Shown here: piece after piece, positions 21,280 through 55,978 of the stretch
Layout: every line of letters begins with the position of its first letter
Position numbering within the stretch: position 1 is the stretch's first letter
Origin: Catenuloplanes niger
GTDB lineage: Bacteria > Actinomycetota > Actinomycetes > Mycobacteriales > Micromonosporaceae
DNA: 64,000 nucleotides
NCBI RefSeq assembly: GCF_031458255.1
Contig: NZ_JAVDYC010000001.1
Coordinates: forward strand, 434,001 to 498,000
Reading direction: 5' to 3'
Notes under the pieces: model-generated
The model's database searches: none
What the model was told of the DNA's origin: nothing
Seen by the model: only the letters and a program-made list of their open reading frames with translations
Translations under genes and position numbers: made by a program

Positions 21280-22011
21280 ATGATGCTCGCCTGCGAGGCA
21301 CGTGACCTGGTGAAGGTCTACGGCCGCGGCGACACCGCGGTGCGTGCGCTGGACGGGGTGACGGTGGGGTTCCCCCGCGCCGAGTTCACCGCGATCATGG
21401 GCCCGTCCGGTTCCGGGAAGTCGACGCTGATGCACTGCCTGGCCGGCCTCGACCGGGCCACCAGCGGCGCCGTGATGCTCGGCGACGTGGACCTCACCCG
21501 CCAACCCGACAAGATCCTCACCAAGGTACGCCGGGAACGGATCGGATTCGTCTTCCAAGCCTTCAACCTGCTCCCCCAACTCACCGCCGCCCAGAACATC
21601 ACCCTCCCCCTCGACCTGTCCGGCACCACACCCGACCCGGCACTGTTCGGCCGCCTCGTCGACGTCCTCGGCCTCCGCGACCGCCTCCGCCACCGCCCCA
21701 GCGAACTCTCCGGCGGCCAGCAACAACGCGTCGCACTCGCCCGCGCCCTCGTCTCCCGCCCCGAAGCCGTCTTCGCCGACGAACCCACCGGCAACCTCGA
21801 CTCCCGCACCGGCACCGAAGTCCTCTCCTTCCTCCGCAACGCCGTCCGCGAATACGGCCAAACCGTCGTCATGGTCACCCACGACCCCATCGCCGCCTCC
21901 TACGCCGACCGCGTCGTCATGCTCGCCGACGGCCGCATCTCCGGCGAGATCCTGCACCCCACCCGCGAATCCGTCACCGACGCCCTCCACCACCTGGCCG
22001 GCGCCCGATGA
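21280..22011 (+). CDS. ABC transporter ATP-binding protein (MacB/LolD type)
   Basis: 243 residues with Walker A GPSGSGKST, Q-loop FVFQAFNLLPQ, signature LSGGQQQRVALARAL, Walker B AVFADEPTGNLDS and the switch His in VMVTHD. It powers the FtsX/MacB-type permease that follows with an ATGA overlap. ATG 21280 (MMLACEARDLVKVYGRGDTA) preceded by GAAGGGA. From about 21480 the third-codon base changes from mixed C/G to mostly C and CAA replaces CAG, unlike the start of the gene. Divergent from the LuxR-type two-component system. Confidence 0.95.
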   Translation: MMLACEARDLVKVYGRGDTAVRALDGVTVGFPRAEFTAIMGPSGSGKSTLMHCLAGLDRATSGAVMLGDVDLTRQPDKILTKVRRERIGFVFQAFNLLPQLTAAQNITLPLDLSGTTPDPALFGRLVDVLGLRDRLRHRPSELSGGQQQRVALARALVSRPEAVFADEPTGNLDSRTGTEVLSFLRNAVREYGQTVVMVTHDPIAASYADRVVMLADGRISGEILHPTRESVTDALHHLAGAR

Positions 22012-24575
22012 CCGTCCTGCGCACCCAACTCGCCGGCCTCACCCGCCGCCCCGCCCGCCTCCTCCTCACCGGCCTCGCACTGATCGTCGCCGCCACCGTC
22101 GTCTTCGGCACCGTCCTAGCCCAACGCATCACCCACCACACCATCCTGGACACCTTCAGCGGCACGTCCGCCGCCGCGGACCTGGTCGTCGGCAACGACG
22201 CCTCGGCCACCTCGGAGGCACTGGCGATCGTCCGGCGGACCGCGGGCGTCGAATCGGCGACCGCCCGCAACAGCGCCTACTACACCGTTCCGTCGGTGCC
22301 CGGCGGCTACCTGGTGGTCACCGGCGACCCGGGGACCGGGCCGCTGTCCGAGGTGACGCTGACGTCCGGGACGTACCCGTCGGCGGAGAACCAGATCGCG
22401 GTCACCACGCGCACCGCCGAGCGGATGGGTCTCACGGTCGGCCGGACCGTGATCGTCCGGCTCGGCCCGGACGAGCCGGAGCGCACGCTCACCGTCACCG
22501 GTCTCGTGTCACCGCTGCGCGGTGAGGGCTTCTCCGGCACCGCGTTCACCACCGACACTCTGGTCAGCGCGATGAGCACGGCCGACGCGCCGACCTACGA
22601 GGAGTCCGGCATCGGCCGCATCGAGGTGCACCTCGCGGCCGGCGCCACCCCGGAGGCGGTCACCCAGGACCTGACCCGCACGCTGCCGGAGGTCGTCGAC
22701 CCGCGGGGGGACGGCGTCGCCAAGAGGCCGCTCGACGTCCGGAACGGCGCCGCGCTGCGCGAGGAGGAGGCGCTCGCCGCGGCCTCCTCGATGAACGAGC
22801 TGTTCTTCCTGGTCGGCATCTTCGTCGCGATCGCCGCCGCCGCGGCCGCGCTGGTCGCCACGTCCACGTTCCGGATCGTGTTCGCGCAGCGGATGAAGCA
22901 GCTCGCACTGCTCCGCGCGGTCGGTGCCGGACGCGGGGCGCTGACCCGGGCGCTGATCGTCGAGGGCGCGCTCACCGGCGCGGTCGCGGGCGTCACCGGC
23001 GTCCTCGTCGCGTACGCGCTCGGCCTCGCCGCCGGCCCGGCCGCCCGCGTCTTCCTGGACACCCCGCTCGCCGCGCCGGGCCTGCCGATCGTGCCCGCGC
23101 TCCTGGTCGTCGCCGGCACCACGGTCGTCGCGATCATCGCGGTCCTCTCCCCCGCGGTCACCGCGGCGCGCGTCTCGCCGCTGGAGGCGCTGCGCTCCGC
23201 GGCCGTCACCGGCGCCAGCGCACGGCTCGGCGTCGTCCGCTGGATCTTCGGACTGCTGCTCACCGCCGCGTCGCTCGCGCTGGTCGGGCTCGCCGTGTCC
23301 AGCCTCCCCGAGCCGAACATGCCGAACGAGTCCGGCGAGACCGTCATGCTCGCCACCGTCGCCGGCGGCACGCTCGGCTTCTTCGCGCTGATCGTGCTCG
23401 GGCCGGCGATCCTCCGCCCGGTGCTGTGGCTGGTCGGCCAGCCACTGCGCGCGCTCGGCCCGACCGGCCGGCTCGCGATCGGCGGCGTCGGCGGCGCACC
23501 CAAGCGGGCCGCCGCGGTCAGCGTGGTCGTGGCGCTCGCGGTCACGATGATCGCCGGTGCGCTGGTCGCGCTCTCCACCGCCCGCGCCGCCATGGACCAG
23601 GAACTGGCCCTGATGGCCCCGGCCGACCTGCAGATCTCCGCGGAGGCCGGCCAGGCGATGCCGCCCGGCGCGGTGGAGGCGGCGCGCGCCCACCCGGAAC
23701 TGCGCAACGTCGTCCCGTACCGGCTCACCGAGGCCGACATCCCGGTCGAGGGCGAGGACCGGGACGACCCGACCGCGCGCCACCCGGTGCTCGACCTGTC
23801 CCTGACCGCGCTGCGCACCAGCGAGGACATCCGGGTCACCGAGGGTACGCTGGACGCGATCGGCCCCGGCAAGATCATCGCGCTGGACTACCTCGGGGAC
23901 TTCACCGCGCTCGGCATCGGCGAGACCGCCACGATCACCCGCGAGGGCAAGAGTGTCACCGGCACCGTCGTCGCCACCGTGGCCGGACTCCCGATGGACG
24001 CGTGGGCGGTGCTCGACCCGGCCGACATGACCACGCTCGGCCTCGCACCGGCACCGACCGGCCTGCTGGCCGACGCGGCCGACGACCGGACCGCGGCATA
24101 CCAGGCCGCCCAGACGCTCGTCCCCGGCGGCGGCGTGGGCGTGCTCGCCGACCAGCGCGACGACTACGAGGAACAGCTGCTGGTGATCACCGCCGCGGCA
24201 CTCGGCCTGGTCGGCATGACCGTCTCGGTCGCGGTCGTCGGCGTCGGCACCACCACCGCGCTGTCCGTGGTGGAACGGCTCCGCGAGGCCGGCCTGCTCC
24301 GCGCCGTGGGCATGTCCCGCGGCCGGCTGCGCGCCACCCTGCTGATCGAGGCATCGCTGTACGGCGTGGTCGGCTCGCTGCTCGGCCTGGCGCTGGCCGT
24401 ACCGTTCGCGTCGCTGATGCTCGGCGGCATCGGACTGGACGGACCGGTCGCGCTGCCCTGGGGCCAGCTGGCGCTGGTCGTCCTGGTCCTGGGCGTGCTG
24501 ACCGCGGCCTCCGGCGTCCTCCCGGCCCGCCGCGCCTCCCGCGTCGCACCGACCGCGGCGCTGGCGATGGACTGA
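22008..24575 (+). CDS. FtsX/MacB-type ABC transporter permease
   Basis: 855 residues: N-terminal helix (GLALIVAATVVFGTVLAQRI), a 200-residue extracytoplasmic MacB-like domain, three helices (FFLVGIFVAIAAAAAALVAT and following), a second helix block and large outer domain around residues 540-720, and three C-terminal helices. The FtsX cores repeat the motif LLRAVGAGRGALTRALIVEG / LLRAVGMSRGRLRATLLIEA. It does not pump substrate through a channel but transmits mechanical force, exporting peptides or lipids or conferring antimicrobial-peptide resistance. Coupled to the ATPase gene by ATGA. Its first ~60 codons share the C-biased codon use seen in the upstream gene; the rest reverts. Confidence 0.92.
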   Translation: MTVLRTQLAGLTRRPARLLLTGLALIVAATVVFGTVLAQRITHHTILDTFSGTSAAADLVVGNDASATSEALAIVRRTAGVESATARNSAYYTVPSVPGGYLVVTGDPGTGPLSEVTLTSGTYPSAENQIAVTTRTAERMGLTVGRTVIVRLGPDEPERTLTVTGLVSPLRGEGFSGTAFTTDTLVSAMSTADAPTYEESGIGRIEVHLAAGATPEAVTQDLTRTLPEVVDPRGDGVAKRPLDVRNGAALREEEALAAASSMNELFFLVGIFVAIAAAAAALVATSTFRIVFAQRMKQLALLRAVGAGRGALTRALIVEGALTGAVAGVTGVLVAYALGLAAGPAARVFLDTPLAAPGLPIVPALLVVAGTTVVAIIAVLSPAVTAARVSPLEALRSAAVTGASARLGVVRWIFGLLLTAASLALVGLAVSSLPEPNMPNESGETVMLATVAGGTLGFFALIVLGPAILRPVLWLVGQPLRALGPTGRLAIGGVGGAPKRAAAVSVVVALAVTMIAGALVALSTARAAMDQELALMAPADLQISAEAGQAMPPGAVEAARAHPELRNVVPYRLTEADIPVEGEDRDDPTARHPVLDLSLTALRTSEDIRVTEGTLDAIGPGKIIALDYLGDFTALGIGETATITREGKSVTGTVVATVAGLPMDAWAVLDPADMTTLGLAPAPTGLLADAADDRTAAYQAAQTLVPGGGVGVLADQRDDYEEQLLVITAAALGLVGMTVSVAVVGVGTTTALSVVERLREAGLLRAVGMSRGRLRATLLIEASLYGVVGSLLGLALAVPFASLMLGGIGLDGPVALPWGQLALVVLVLGVLTAASGVLPARRASRVAPTAALAMD

Positions 24576-24596: not shown

Positions 24597-24700
24597 CGGA
24601 TCGGTTCTCTACCGCTCCCGCGGATCGGTTCGCTACCGCTCCCGCGGATCGGTTCTCTACCGCGTAGCGGTCTCCCGCGGATCGGGTTCTCTGCGAGGCC
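24597..24700. repeat. 24-bp direct repeats downstream of ABC permease
   Basis: Four copies of CGGATCGGTTCTCTACCGCT (plus CCCG) start at 24597, 24621, 24645 and 24678; the last spacing is 33 bp because of a short insertion. Non-coding, between the permease stop and the terminator. Confidence 0.8.
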
Positions 24701-24720: not shown

Positions 24721-24759
24721 CCTGCGAAGGGCCCGGCGGTTCGCCGGGCCCTTCGCAGG
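24721..24759. terminator. Strong bidirectional terminator
   Basis: A perfect 18-bp inverted repeat (CCTGCGAAGGGCCCGGCG, loop GTT, complement) separates the rightward ABC permease from the leftward membrane-protein gene whose stop is the next codon (24761-24763). Confidence 0.8.
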
Positions 24760-24760
24760 G

Positions 24761-25321
24761 TCAGCGTGGCGGCCGCATCCGCGTCATCGGGACGCCGGCC
24801 GCCCGGCAGGCGTTCTCCGCACCCGTCAGCAGGACCGCGCCGCGCATCCCGTCGATCGGCCGCGCCGGATCCTCCTTCCGGTAGCCGAGCTGGAACACCT
24901 CGCCGATCCGGGCGAGGCTCTCGTGGCCGGAGGCGGCCAGCTGGTCCGCCAGTTCCCGCGCCTCGGCCTCGGAGACCTCGGGCCGGCCGCCGGCCACGAA
25001 CTCCGTGATGAACTCGTCGATCCGGTGACAGGCCAGCACGCCGGGATCCTCGCGGGTGGCGACGTACCCGGCGGTGCCGGCGGCGGCCAGGACCGCCACG
25101 GTCACGGCCACCACCGCCGCGACGACGACGGGCCGCCGTCGCCGGGACGCGGCCGGTTCGGCGACGGTCGGGACAGGTTCGCTGGGTGTGGTGATGACCG
25201 CGCTCCTCAGTTCGATGTCGTCATGTCGACGCCCGCCACCAGGCACGCCGGACGGCGGGCGGTGCGGGCTCGGGGGTGGGCGGGTCAACCGGGGGCATGC
25301 GTCTCTCCTCGGTCGACGCAT
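24761..25321 (-). CDS. Small single-pass membrane protein with extracytoplasmic domain; start uncertain
   Basis: Up to 186 residues. A positively charged stretch (SRRRRP) precedes one membrane helix (VVVAAVVAVTVAVLAAAGTA), followed by a 95-residue outer domain with two cysteines (LACHRIDEF and ENACRAAG). The organisation matches the next gene, with which it shares its promoter. The start is a puzzle: ATG 25321 overlaps the probable -10 box, while the well-placed ribosome site GAGGAGA serves ATG 25298, whose frame stops after 25 Pro-rich codons. Either the 5' part carries a frameshift or translation restarts downstream. Function unknown. Confidence 0.5.
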   Translation of the reverse strand: MRRPRRDACPRLTRPPPSPHRPPSGVPGGGRRHDDIELRSAVITTPSEPVPTVAEPAASRRRRPVVVAAVVAVTVAVLAAAGTAGYVATREDPGVLACHRIDEFITEFVAGGRPEVSEAEARELADQLAASGHESLARIGEVFQLGYRKEDPARPIDGMRGAVLLTGAENACRAAGVPMTRMRPPR

Positions 25322-25354
25322 TATTCAGTGATCTTGGAGCGGTCGTACAGCGTG
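25319..25354 (-). promoter_or_regulatory. Promoter copy 1 of a duplicated element
   Basis: Read on the minus strand: GCTGTAC, six variable bases, then TCCAAGATCACTGAATAATG. AATAAT looks like a -10 box; CTGTAC lies at the -35 distance. The same arrangement is found upstream of the neighbouring gene near 26671-26706. Confidence 0.6.
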
Positions 25355-25400
25355 TTTTGATCTCCATCACCGCGGGCCGCTCGCCGGTCCTCCCGTCCCT

Positions 25401-26666
25401 CTACCGAGGAGGGTCGAACGAAACCCAGACCCAGGTGTCGCCGCAGGCCCGGTACGTCGCCTCGATGAGCGCCCGAGCCGCGGCCGGCCCCTGGACCTGA
25501 GCCGCGGCGTCGGCGTCGACCGGCCCCGTCACGATGCTGAGCGGGTCCGTCCCGCCGTAGGCGACCTCGACCGCGACCAGATAGTCCCGCCCGACGGCGG
25601 CGAGGACGGCGTTGTTCGCGGCGGCCAGATCCTCCGCGATGATCACCGTACGGAGCGGGGTGAGATTCGGCCGCCCGGACTCGGCGATCTCCTTGACCTC
25701 CACACAGCCGTCCGCGGCCTTCTCGTCCGCGAAGAGCACGAACACGCCCGCCGCGACATTGATCACGAGACCCACCGCCACGGCGACGACCACCCACGGA
25801 TTCCGCCACGGACTGGGCCTCGGCTGACCGGGATTGGTCGGCACGAAATAGCCCCGCGGCACCTCCGGCGGCGCCATCGGCCCACCCGGCGCCCCGAACG
25901 CGGGCGCTCCCGGCGGCGGCACATACGGCGCAACCCCGGACGACGGCGCATGCGGGGCCACGCCAGACGGCGGCGTGTGCGGCACCACGCCGGACGACGG
26001 CGCATGCGCGGCCGCACCAGACGGCGGCATGTCCGACACCACACCGGACGACGTATCCGACGCGGCACCGGCCGACGGCGCATGGGAGGCCACGCCAGGC
26101 GGCGCCGGGTGCGGGGCAACGCCAGGCGGCGCCGTGTCCGGCGCGACACCGGACCGCAGCGCCTCCCCGGACGACGGCGTATGCGGCACCGGACCGGCCA
26201 AGGCGGCATCCGACGCCGCGCCGGGCTGCGATCCGGGCGACGCGGGACTCGACGGCACACCGCCGGAGGGCGCAACGGCAGCGTCGCCGGTCGCCGGGGG
26301 CGGCGGCGTGACGGGTCGAGCCCAGACGGACCGCGGCGTCTCCACCACGGCCGGCGGGATATCGCTTTCGCCCCCGACCACATCGGCCGGAGCCGTCGCG
26401 GCGATACCAGGCGGGGCCGTCGGAGCGGGAGCGGCTGCAGAAGCTTCGGCAGCGACCGACGAGGCCGGTGCATCCGCCGACATCGGCGGCACGGTCGCGG
26501 GACCTGCCGGCACCATCACCGGGCCGCTGCGAGGGGCATCCCGTGCCACAACCGGCGGCGTGGTGGCGCCGGCCGGGACAGGCGCCTCGGTATTGCGGTC
26601 CCCGGGTGCGGAGACGGCCTCCGCTGACGGTTCGAACGGTGCGGGTGAGGGCCCAGGCGCGGTCAT
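25401..26666 (-). CDS. Pro/Ala-rich single-pass membrane protein with short outer domain
   Basis: 421 residues. Residues 1-290 are disordered and Pro/Ala/Ser/Gly-rich; about residues 185-280 carry 9-11-residue repeats of the type HAPSSGVAP, PHTPPSGVA. One membrane helix follows (WVVVAVAVGLVINVAAGVFV) and then a 110-residue extracytoplasmic domain with two cysteines (DGCVEVKE, YRACGDTW). The gene appears leaderless: AATAAT ends six bases before ATG 26666. Same topology and promoter as the neighbour at 24761, so the two are probably co-regulated. No known family recognised; the long repeat tail could contact cytoplasmic partners or regulate anchoring. Confidence 0.7.
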   Translation of the reverse strand: MTAPGPSPAPFEPSAEAVSAPGDRNTEAPVPAGATTPPVVARDAPRSGPVMVPAGPATVPPMSADAPASSVAAEASAAAPAPTAPPGIAATAPADVVGGESDIPPAVVETPRSVWARPVTPPPPATGDAAVAPSGGVPSSPASPGSQPGAASDAALAGPVPHTPSSGEALRSGVAPDTAPPGVAPHPAPPGVASHAPSAGAASDTSSGVVSDMPPSGAAAHAPSSGVVPHTPPSGVAPHAPSSGVAPYVPPPGAPAFGAPGGPMAPPEVPRGYFVPTNPGQPRPSPWRNPWVVVAVAVGLVINVAAGVFVLFADEKAADGCVEVKEIAESGRPNLTPLRTVIIAEDLAAANNAVLAAVGRDYLVAVEVAYGGTDPLSIVTGPVDADAAAQVQGPAAARALIEATYRACGDTWVWVSFDPPR

Positions 26667-26668
26667 GG

Positions 26669-26706
26669 CGGCATTATTCAGTGATCTTGGATGTCGAGTA
26701 CAGCGG
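26669..26706 (-). promoter_or_regulatory. Promoter copy 2 of a duplicated element
   Basis: Minus strand: GCTGTAC, six bases, TCCAAGATCACTGAATAATG, identical in all constant positions to the copy at 25319-25354. Here the -10-like AATAAT is six bases from ATG 26666, giving a leaderless transcript. Confidence 0.65.
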
Positions 26707-27123
26707 CTTTCACCAAGACCACATCGGACCACACTCGCTCGCACACAACGCGCGGCCGGGTGGGGATGCCGACCATCGAGATGGGCCGCCACCTCGCCGC
26801 AATGCGTTGCGGTCCGTGGAGCTGACAGTGTCCTGTCCGGCGCCCACGGTGCGACCGACGCCGGCGGCTCTCGCTCAGCTGATCTCGGCGGACGGCCGAA
26901 GGCCGGCGCGGCAGCCCGAGTCCATCGGTCATCGAGATCTGCCCAAACCACCGCGAAAAAGCAGTCGGGCCGGTACGCCCCGAGCAGGAACTCGCCGAGC
27001 CGGAAAACGATCTGCGCGGGACAACGACCGGGACGGAACACCGGCCAGGGCGCAACAAGCCAAGAGGCGACAACCGACCAGCGCGCGCAACGATCGGCCA
27101 AGAGACAACAATCGGCCGGGCGC
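26707..27123. other. Intergenic DNA without recognisable gene
   Basis: Several overlapping frames are open, but none has protein-like composition, a ribosome site or a recognisable family; the predicted products are Arg/Pro/Ser-rich in all frames. GC content drops slightly (CCACCGCGAAAAAGCAG near 26950). Nothing else seen. Confidence 0.4.
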
Positions 27124-27280
27124 AGCAACCACTCGGGAGCGCAACAACCGGCCGAGGCGGCCAGCAACCGCCCGGGAGCGCAACAACCGGCCGCGGCCTA
27201 GCAACCGCCCGGGAGCGCAACAACCGGCCGGGGCCCAGCAACCGCCCGGGAACACAACAACCGGCCGAGGCGGCCAGTCC
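27124..27280. repeat. Tandem repeat array, 37-39-bp unit, four copies
   Basis: Copies start with AGCAACC at 27124, 27163, 27200 and 27237 and contain GGGAGCGCAACAACCGGCC. Unit lengths are 39, 37 and 37 bp. A shorter-motif precursor (CAACCGGCC-like) extends upstream to about 27060. Not a multiple of three, so not a repeat protein. No unique spacers, so not CRISPR. Confidence 0.8.
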
Positions 27281-27513: not shown

Positions 27514-27670
27514 GAGGGATCTGGGCGAGGTCCGTATCCGCCACCTACGAGAGCGAGCTGGGCGGGCGTCCGCATCCCCGCTTACGGGAGCGAGCTGGGC
27601 GGGCGTCCGCATCCCCGCTTACGGGAGCGAGCTGGGCGGGCGTCCGCATCCCCCGCCTGCGGGAGCGAGG
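27514..27670. repeat. Tandem repeat array, 37-bp unit, about four copies
   Basis: Nearly identical copies beginning GAGCGAGCTGGGCGGGCGTC start at 27551, 27588 and 27625, with a degenerate copy 37 bp earlier (27514, GATCTGGGCGAGGTCCGT) and a partial one at 27663. The period of 37 bp makes each copy shift frame, so any translation cycles through all three frames; a coding role is unlikely. The same period as the unrelated array 400 bp upstream is notable. Confidence 0.85.
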
Positions 27671-27945
27671 GTGGTGGGGTTTGGGTGGCCGAGGCAACAA
27701 ACGTGGGGTGGTTTGCGGCGGATCCGGGCGGGGAAAGGGGGCGTGATTCCGGGCTCGGACTCCCGGATCGTGGGGCGCGCAGAGGATGTTGATCACGTTA
27801 TGAGCTCGACTTGATCACTTTGCGTGAGTTCACCTGCGCGGTTTCGTACCGTTATATCTTGATTTTTGGGGTTTTAGCGGGTGGAGCGAAGGGCTATAGC
27901 ACACGCCGACTACCGAATTGTTACAAGCGGCGATCGTGCGGGATC
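27671..27945. other. AT-richer upstream region of the mms/chv operon
   Basis: No gene. The stretch includes T/G-rich tracts and the motif GTTGATCACGTTATGAGCTC with a nearby second TTGATCAC (27790 and 27812), a possible pair of regulator sites. Base composition is clearly lower in GC than the surroundings, as expected for a promoter region. Confidence 0.35.
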
Positions 27946-28026: not shown

Positions 28027-28043
28027 ATGACGGTCGTGAGGCC

Positions 28044-28047
<4 letters not shown>
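28027..28047 (+). CDS. Six-codon leader peptide overlapping mmsA start
   Basis: ATG 28027 is preceded by the good ribosome site CCCGGAGG (ending 28020) and encodes MTVVRP; its TGA (28045-28047) overlaps the mmsA ATG (28044). The operon's best ribosome site therefore serves the leader, and mmsA would be translated by reinitiation. Seen directly; regulatory meaning is inferred. Confidence 0.55.
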
Positions 28048-29587
<1,540 letters not shown>

Positions 29588-29591
<4 letters not shown>

Positions 29592-30880
29592 GCCGAATCA
29601 AGGACCTTCAAAAGAACCTCTTCGGGGGTACGACCAGCAACTCGCGCCAGTTCGGCATGATCTTCGCCCTGGTCGCGATCGTGCTGTTCTTCCAGATCTG
29701 GACGAACGGCCTGACGCTCAGCTCCGGCAACATGATCGCGCTCGTCAGCCAGTACTCGTACATCCTGATCCTGGCCATCGGCATGCTGATGGTGATCGTG
29801 GCCGGCCACATCGACCTCTCGGTCGGCTCGGTCGCCGCGTTCGTCGGCATCGTGGTCGCGAAGCTGATGGCGGACCAGGAGATCCACTGGTTCCTGGCCC
29901 TGCTGATCGGTCTCGGCGTCGGTGCGCTGATCGGTGCCTGGCAGGGCTTCTGGGTCGCCTACGTCGGCGTGCCCGCGTTCATCGTCACGCTGGCCGGCAT
30001 GCTGATCTTCCGCGGCGCCAACCAGTACGTCGGAGAGTCGCAGACCGTCTCGGTGCCGGAGGGCTTCCAGACCATCGGCGGCGGCTACCTGCCCGAGGTC
30101 GGGCCGGCCACCAACTACAACAACCTGACGCTGCTGCTCGGCGCCGCGCTCTGCGCCGCCGTGATCTACCGCGAGTGGCAGCTGCGCCGCACCCGCCACG
30201 AGATGCAGGCCGACGTCGGCCCGATCTGGGTCTCCTTCGTGCGCGTCGCGGTGCTGGTGGCCGTCATCATCTTCGCCACGCTGCGGTTCGCGGGCGGCCG
30301 GGTCGGCACCAGCTTCCCGGTCTCCGGCATCATCCTCGGCGTGCTGATCCTGGTGTACTCGTTCTACACCCGGAACACCGCGGCCGGCCGGCACATCTAC
30401 GCGGTCGGCGGCAACTCCCGCGCCGCGGAGCTGTCCGGCGTGAAGCTCCAGCGCGTCAACTTCTTCGTCATGATGAACATGGGCGTGCTGGCCGCGCTGG
30501 CCGGCATGATCTTCGTGGCCCGTTCCCGCGCCTCCGGCCCGCAGGACGGCCTCAGCTGGGAGCTCGACGCGATCGCCGCCGTGTTCATCGGTGGTGCCGC
30601 GGTCTCCGGTGGTCTCGGCACGGTCTCCGGCTCGATCGTCGGTGGTCTGGTGATGGCCGTCCTCAACAACGGCCTGATCCTCAAGGGCATCGGCGCGGAC
30701 AGCGTTCAGATGATCAAGGGTCTGGTGCTGCTGCTCGCGGTCGCGCTGGACGTCTACAACAAGCGACAGGGCCGGTTCTCCATCATCGGCTCGATCACCA
30801 AGGGGTTCCGCGGAGGCGGTTCCTCGACGCCGTCGGACACCACGCCGGCGCAGAAGGTCAAGACCTCGGTGGCCGGCTGA
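29588..30880 (+). CDS. mmsB: Multiple-monosaccharide ABC transporter permease
   Basis: 430 residues with about ten helices. The CUT2 permease signatures are visible: [40 protein letters not shown] and the late [20 protein letters not shown] cytoplasmic insertion around residues 195-220 ([19 protein letters not shown]) is typical of the MmsB/GguB group. ATG 29588 overlaps the end of mmsA. Forms the membrane pore with itself. Confidence 0.92.
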
Positions 30881-37895: not shown

Positions 37896-37984
37896 CCGCC
37901 CGCGGATCGTGCAGGGAGGAGCGCCAGCGACGACCGGTGCCCGCGGGAGCATGCGGAAGGCGACCACGCCGGAAGCGGGAAGAG
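37896..37984. repeat. Dispersed 89-bp element, copy A
   Basis: About 86% identical over 89 bp, without gaps, to 55890-55978. Conserved blocks are CGTGCAGGGAGGAGC, GCGACGACCG, TGCCCGCGGGAGCA and CGCCGGAAGCGGG. Both copies lie between convergent genes. Possibly a small mobile or transcribed intergenic repeat. Confidence 0.75.
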
Positions 37985-55889: not shown

Positions 55890-55978
55890 CCGACCGCGGA
55901 ACGTGCAGGGAGGAGCCCTGGCGACGACCGTTGCCCGCGGGAGCACCGGGAAGGTGACCGCGCCGGAAGCGGGCAGAG
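55890..55978. repeat. Dispersed 89-bp element, copy B
   Basis: Second copy of the element at 37896-37984 (about 12 mismatches in 89 bp), again in a convergent intergenic gap, here between the ROK gene and the membrane-protein gene at 56007. Confidence 0.75.

Follow-up and report, generated by a model that had tools for sequence, protein, structure and literature searches.

Tandem arrays of lineage-specific paralogues that undergo repeated deletion are a familiar kind of locus, and primary-sigma promoters carrying an operator in the spacer are a general kind of control region. In PMC3160421, the leaderless promoters of Actinobacteria are described as having a TANNNT box about 12 bases ahead of the start codon. 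The locus analysed below lies in a window of 64,000 nucleotides from Catenuloplanes niger (genome G000) and shares features with each of these three; it carries two copies of a promoter-like element beside related genes for small membrane proteins.

The paired element and its distribution

An earlier note on this DNA had pointed to an identical 27-position promoter element ahead of two membrane-protein genes. When the window was searched with the pattern GCTGTAC-N6-TCCAAGATCACTGAATAATG, two copies without mismatch were found (Table 1), and all 27 positions agree between them. Allowing up to three mismatches, we obtained the same two matches in the window, as against none in 100 shuffles, and no others in the whole genome of 9,742,698 bases. 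The small regulon that had been suggested is not borne out by this search, since both matches lie at one locus and no unlinked target was found at up to three mismatches, a threshold at which weaker sites could be missed. A mobile repeat was also considered, and was rejected because the genome has just two copies. With the shorter GATCACTGNATNAT at up to one mismatch, seven places were found in G000, namely the two known copies and five further sites with one mismatch, one of which, GATCACTGAAAAAT, recurs in G003 (loci L110 and L116). At that other locus, around position 1500 on the minus strand, GATCACTGAAAAATGCTTCGCCGAGCGTGGC is common to the two Catenuloplanes genomes and is similar to the core of the element. 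The longer element pattern had no exact match in genome_contigs, a collection that may omit the source genome and those near to it, its 18-mer had no match in viral_contigs, and a full-text literature search for AAGATCACTGAATAAT found no paper.

Five Catenuloplanes genomes were compared, the window genome and four relatives (G001 to G004). Exactly two copies of the element are present in each of three of them (G000, G003 and G004), and in G003 and G004 the pair sits at the same locus as in the window. Among 61 genomes (G000 and 60 relatives) the element was found at up to three mismatches in three, all of them Catenuloplanes, and its 18-mer, at up to one mismatch, picked out the same three among 300 genomes of the family. 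Each of the other two Catenuloplanes genomes has a single diverged copy. That of G001, CAAGATCACTGCATGATG, differs at 2 of 18 positions, keeps CAAGATCACTG and lacks the GTAC box, so that a fixed −35 is not established. That of G002 reads GCTGTAC-N11-GATCGCTGATAATG; GCTGTAC-N11-GATC alone occurs at 20 places in the source genome and at 19 in G002, which makes it too common as a search pattern, and the assignment of this copy depends for that reason on position as well as on letters. In both genomes the diverged copy lies next to a family gene, and the left neighbour is the same. The association of the element with these genes in related genomes, on which the earlier note had staked its proposal, is thus found in all four relatives. 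The element was not seen in the upstream DNA of 10 of 11 loci outside the genus (the other, L080, gave no sequence).

Conservation within the element is uneven. GTAC-N8-CAAGATCACTGAATAATG is invariant across the six paired copies of G000, G003 and G004, and the footprint of the element stands out against poorly aligning upstream DNA. Between GTAC and CAAGATCACTG lie eight bases that differ on average at 2.7 positions when the same copy is compared across species (six comparisons: 3, 5, 2, 1, 3 and 2), as against 5.9 when copy 1 is compared with copy 2 (nine comparisons, range 4 to 7). Since these bases vary while the core is identical, the core is under selection and was not freshly copied. 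Since they are closer between species than between copies, the two copies were already separate before the three species split.

Table 1. Features of the locus, with positions given in the window
Feature	Position	Strand	Remarks
Inverted repeat, 18 bp, perfect	24721..24759	.	just after the gene 1 stop; −46 kcal/mol, z −7.98
Gene 1 (last gene)	24761..25195	-	144 aa; one predicted membrane helix, outer domain with C56 and C130; probable start
Shine-Dalgarno-like GAGGAG	25203..25208	-	7 bases ahead of ATC 25195
Remnant of gene A (middle gene)	25207..25298	-	from alignment with relatives
Element 2	25319..25351	-	promoter-like; formerly gene A's, now ahead of gene 1
Element 2, −10-like AATAAT	25325-25320	-	
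Element 2, spacer motif CAAGATCACTG	25336-25326	-	
Gene 2	25401..26666	-	421 aa; tail, a single predicted membrane helix, C321 and C408 in the outer domain
Element 1	26672..26704	-	promoter-like, ahead of long-tailed gene 2
Element 1, −10-like AATAAT	26678-26673	-	ATG follows after 6 bases, a leaderless layout
Element 1, spacer motif CAAGATCACTG	26689-26679	-	
Element 1, GTAC box	26701-26698	-	

The proteins, their genes and the locus in five species

The architecture attributed earlier to both window proteins, a tail, one membrane helix and an outer domain with a Cys pair, agrees with their hydrophobicity, charge and Cys positions. In each there is a single segment of strong hydrophobicity, preceded by net positive and followed by negative charge, and there are exactly two Cys, both beyond that segment. 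Given this distribution of charge, the Cys-bearing domain should face outside. The N-terminal tail of gene 2 runs to about 290 residues, is rich in Pro and Ala and contains 9-aa repeats, which are visible in the DNA at 25869-26259 as a step of 27 bases (9 residues). The whole gene 2 protein has 421, 332 or 300 aa across three species. A structural model of the gene 1 protein predicts the membrane helix followed by four helices of the outer domain (mean pLDDT 81.7).

The two genes had been described simply as different, but they prove to be remote paralogues. Alignment with hhalign of a profile of genes 1 and A against the outer domain of gene 2 gave a probability of 95.3% and an E-value of 2.2e-8 over 62 columns, at about 26% identity; these columns reach from the end of the helix halfway through the outer domain. 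Profile searches matched in both directions, always in the helix and the N-terminal half of the outer domain: the profile of genes 1 and A retrieved gene 2 in three genomes (E 2.8e-7, 5.8e-7 and 6.1e-6), and the reverse profile, built on the outer domain of gene 2, retrieved the family of genes 1 and A (E 1.8e-5 to 0.0046). Both Cys are invariant in an alignment of 17 members (17/17). On the strength of these profiles and of the shared Cys pair, genes 1, A and 2 are distant paralogues belonging to one family of predicted single-helix membrane proteins. Further paralogues are present away from the cluster in G000, G003 and G004 (p1), in G002, G003 and G004 (p2) and on contig 12 of G002, and outside Catenuloplanes matches at E ≤1e-4, some of partial length, were obtained in 15 of 116 other genomes of the family (20 of 121 with the five included). 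Against Pfam, the window genes and one gene A all stayed below the cut-offs, and no score exceeding them was noted among the 17 members, one of which matched a single DUF at E 0.0057; the best NCBIfam match scored 20 bits where 100 are required. The dN/dS ratio was 0.37-0.54 for gene 1 (three pairs) and 0.74 for gene A (one pair); for gene 2 (three pairs) it was 0.38-0.51 when the outer domain alone was taken and 0.44-0.67 over the full gene. All three genes appear to be under loose selection, gene A under the loosest, which fits the loss of gene A in G000.

The DNA flanking the cluster aligns at 90-94% among G000, G003 and G004. G001 aligns to the window on both sides of the cluster (22146-24575 at 83% and 28040-30370 at 94%), and on contig 21 of G002 the left flank aligns to it and the right-hand neighbour is inverted. 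Within this syntenic setting, profile searches and alignments find 3, 3, 2 plus a remnant (the window), 1 and 1 family genes in the five species. G003 and G004 carry gene 2, gene A and gene 1 in tandem. The single gene of G001 matches gene 2 in the DNA of its start and element (54 bases, 81%) and gene 1 in that of its outer domain (208 columns, 72%), and because its two ends align to different genes in this way a deletion has probably fused the two. At the G002 locus, one relative of gene 2 was found. In G003, gene 2 and element 2 have a strong hairpin between them (−44.6 kcal/mol, z −5.36), which would separate two transcripts; it is not common to the window, where the corresponding stretch folds no better than shuffles (z 0.57). 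In G004, the end of gene 2 and element 2 are 377 bases apart.

Gene A is intact in G003 and G004 (141 and 138 aa). The window keeps its start region and its last codons, the interior having been deleted, and the two ends are out of frame with each other. The order following element 2 is a Shine-Dalgarno-like GAGGAG, the remnant reading frame from 25298 and gene 1 from about 25195. The gene had previously been placed at 24761-25321, a start that we reject as an artefact, given that the ATG at 25321 belongs to element 2 and that the frame opened there crosses the gene A remnant in another frame. The equal spacing of element and gene claimed for the two copies was not confirmed: gene 2 starts at ATG 26666, five bases beyond element 1, whose own ATG opens a frame of three codons only, and the ATG of element 2 is not a gene start.

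Where gene 1 begins was judged from the three genomes that have it together with the element pair. In all three, the box and the gap of GAGGAG-N7-ATCACCACACC are identical, and no in-frame ATG, GTG or TTG occurs in any copy from 16 codons before the ATC at 25195 to 11 after it. In relatives whose proteins begin Met-Thr-x-Pro, the Met aligns with this ATC. The simplest reading is that gene 1 probably begins at the conserved ATC, that is with an AUC start; conserved AUC starts are rare. A CTG stands five codons ahead of the ATC in all three copies and is a possible alternative start, the ATC being preferred because the CTG overlaps the GAGGAG box. A ribosomal frameshift from gene A into gene 1 is another possible alternative; no slippery heptamer was seen by eye.

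Several other repeats were observed around the cluster. The inverted repeat behind gene 1 is likely to be a terminator between convergent genes. Three tandem copies of a 24-base unit (CGGATCGGTTCTCTACCGCTCCCG, 79-100% alike) lie at 24597-24668, behind gene 22008-24575, and two direct-repeat arrays with a step of 37-39 bases lie at 27118-27277 and 27539-27678, in the interval that separates gene 2 from the genes starting at 28044, which we take from their translation to resemble a sugar ABC transporter. Further away, a dispersed repeat of about 85 bases has copies at 37897-37981 and 55894-55973. The first of these has at least 43 matches in the genome at E ≤1e-4 (40 of 411 candidates scored), among which are three inverted pairs 45-86 bases apart, and the repeat resembles a family of REP/REPIN type.

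Promoter layout and competing explanations

In G000, G003 and G004, element 1 has the form AATAAT-N6-ATG, with the first base of the box 12 bases ahead of the ATG. In order to judge this layout, we used as a control 464 kb of the source genome, comprising 357 called genes and 840 candidate starts. At 6, 7 and 8 bases before candidate starts, TAnnnT occurred 25, 21 and 12 times, compared with a mean of 3.48 at control distances. For [ACG]AT[AG]AT the counts were 4, 2 and 0 compared with 1.00, a weak enrichment at 6 and 7 bases together, and this form constitutes a minor class, with 6 sites against 58 of TAnnnT at spacings of 5-8. Element 1 therefore has its −10-like box within the 6-8 bases before the start codon that the leaderless layout calls for, and departs from the TANNNT consensus in having A at position 1 of AATAAT. 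Element 2 has the same core, followed by the leader with GAGGAG. When the 45 bases before the box were searched in 70 other leaderless-type promoters with TAnnnT (464 kb), none contained CAAGATCACTG within three mismatches. The 11-base motif ahead of the −10-like box does not, on this comparison, seem to be a general one, which would suit either a shared operator or a promoter class of a special kind. As none of the 70 approaches it, the spacer block needs another reason, most likely a shared operator. No dyad was seen in the motif.

The explanation that we favour, and consider reasonably probable, is a cluster of tandem paralogues in which two old promoter copies have been held nearly fixed around a spacer operator while the middle gene was lost. 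Both elements are putative promoters, each of which would be primary-sigma-like, with TGTAC as a −35-like box, a spacer of about 18 bases and AATAAT as the −10. Copy 1 would give rise to a leaderless mRNA from the ATG of gene 2, and copy 2 to an mRNA for gene A and gene 1 that has a short leader. As a candidate operator, the invariant CAAGATCACTG would most likely be bound by a single regulator common to the two promoters, through which the paralogues would be expressed in coordination. In G000, an internal deletion would have removed the middle gene, leaving its promoter ahead of gene 1. As the genes are paralogous, the promoters share descent, and duplication and selection both account for the identity of the elements.

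If that identity were instead a leftover of duplication, either too recent to have changed or maintained by gene conversion, no special regulation would be called for. Common descent of the promoters is indeed what tandem paralogues lead one to expect, but the proteins are by now about 26% identical over 62 columns, and bases within the element are closer to the same copy in other species than to the other copy in the same genome. Because they group by copy, the copies are older than the three species and have not been made uniform by conversion, and we regard this account as improbable. The two-part membrane machine of gene 2 and gene 1 products proposed in the earlier note fares worse still. 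Purifying selection acts moderately on gene 1 and on the outer domain of gene 2, and the two genes may share expression; however, gene number at the locus varies as given above, and the genes are paralogues and not two different parts. With one to three genes according to species, an obligate two-part system is unsupported, and we think such a machine very improbable. A complex of related subunits is possible.

The −10 boxes bear on the proposal that an alternative sigma factor reads the element, whose promoter would consist of a CTGTAC box, the spacer motif and a −10 that follows [ACG]AT[AG]AT. This form, a minority one genome-wide, is found 6-8 bases before the start in all 15 of the upstream regions of family genes that were aligned by eye (before the leader in the case of the three element 2 copies). 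In the distant paralogues, however, only the −10 form is common; the CTGTAC box is absent, and of the spacer motif CACTG alone appears, in p1 of two genomes. Furthermore, the paralogues are related, so that their promoters are not independent, p1 has another possible −10 (TAATCT at 5 bases), and the same minor form precedes other called genes of the genome. An alternative sigma factor is unlikely on this evidence. We also entertain, as an unlikely extension, a genus-specific transcription or sigma factor dedicated to this one locus through CAAGATCACTG, which would coordinate fast-changing paralogous envelope proteins through loss and fusion, combined with the conserved AUC start of the last gene.

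Significance and comparison with described systems

Under the favoured reading of two old putative promoters around a shared operator, the locus would be a clean case of promoters outliving genes, with two fixed copies and served proteins that have diverged, fused or been deleted. It also illustrates how an ATG within a promoter can mislead a gene model, and it points to a family of small membrane proteins that has no Pfam name and occurs in part of the Micromonosporaceae. The element pair offers testable promoters with which a regulator might be found in Catenuloplanes.

In relation to the leaderless actinobacterial promoters described in PMC3160421, element 1 is similar in placing AATAAT at 12 bases, a distance that is common in the genome, and dissimilar in having a −10 that begins with A and in carrying an invariant spacer motif. 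The element resembles primary-sigma promoters with a spacer operator in having its conserved block between the −35-like and −10-like boxes, and differs from them in being without a visible dyad. The three related genes, of which one to three are kept per species, are like other tandem arrays of lineage-specific paralogues with repeated deletion; unlike those arrays, the cluster has promoter copies that are far more alike than the proteins.
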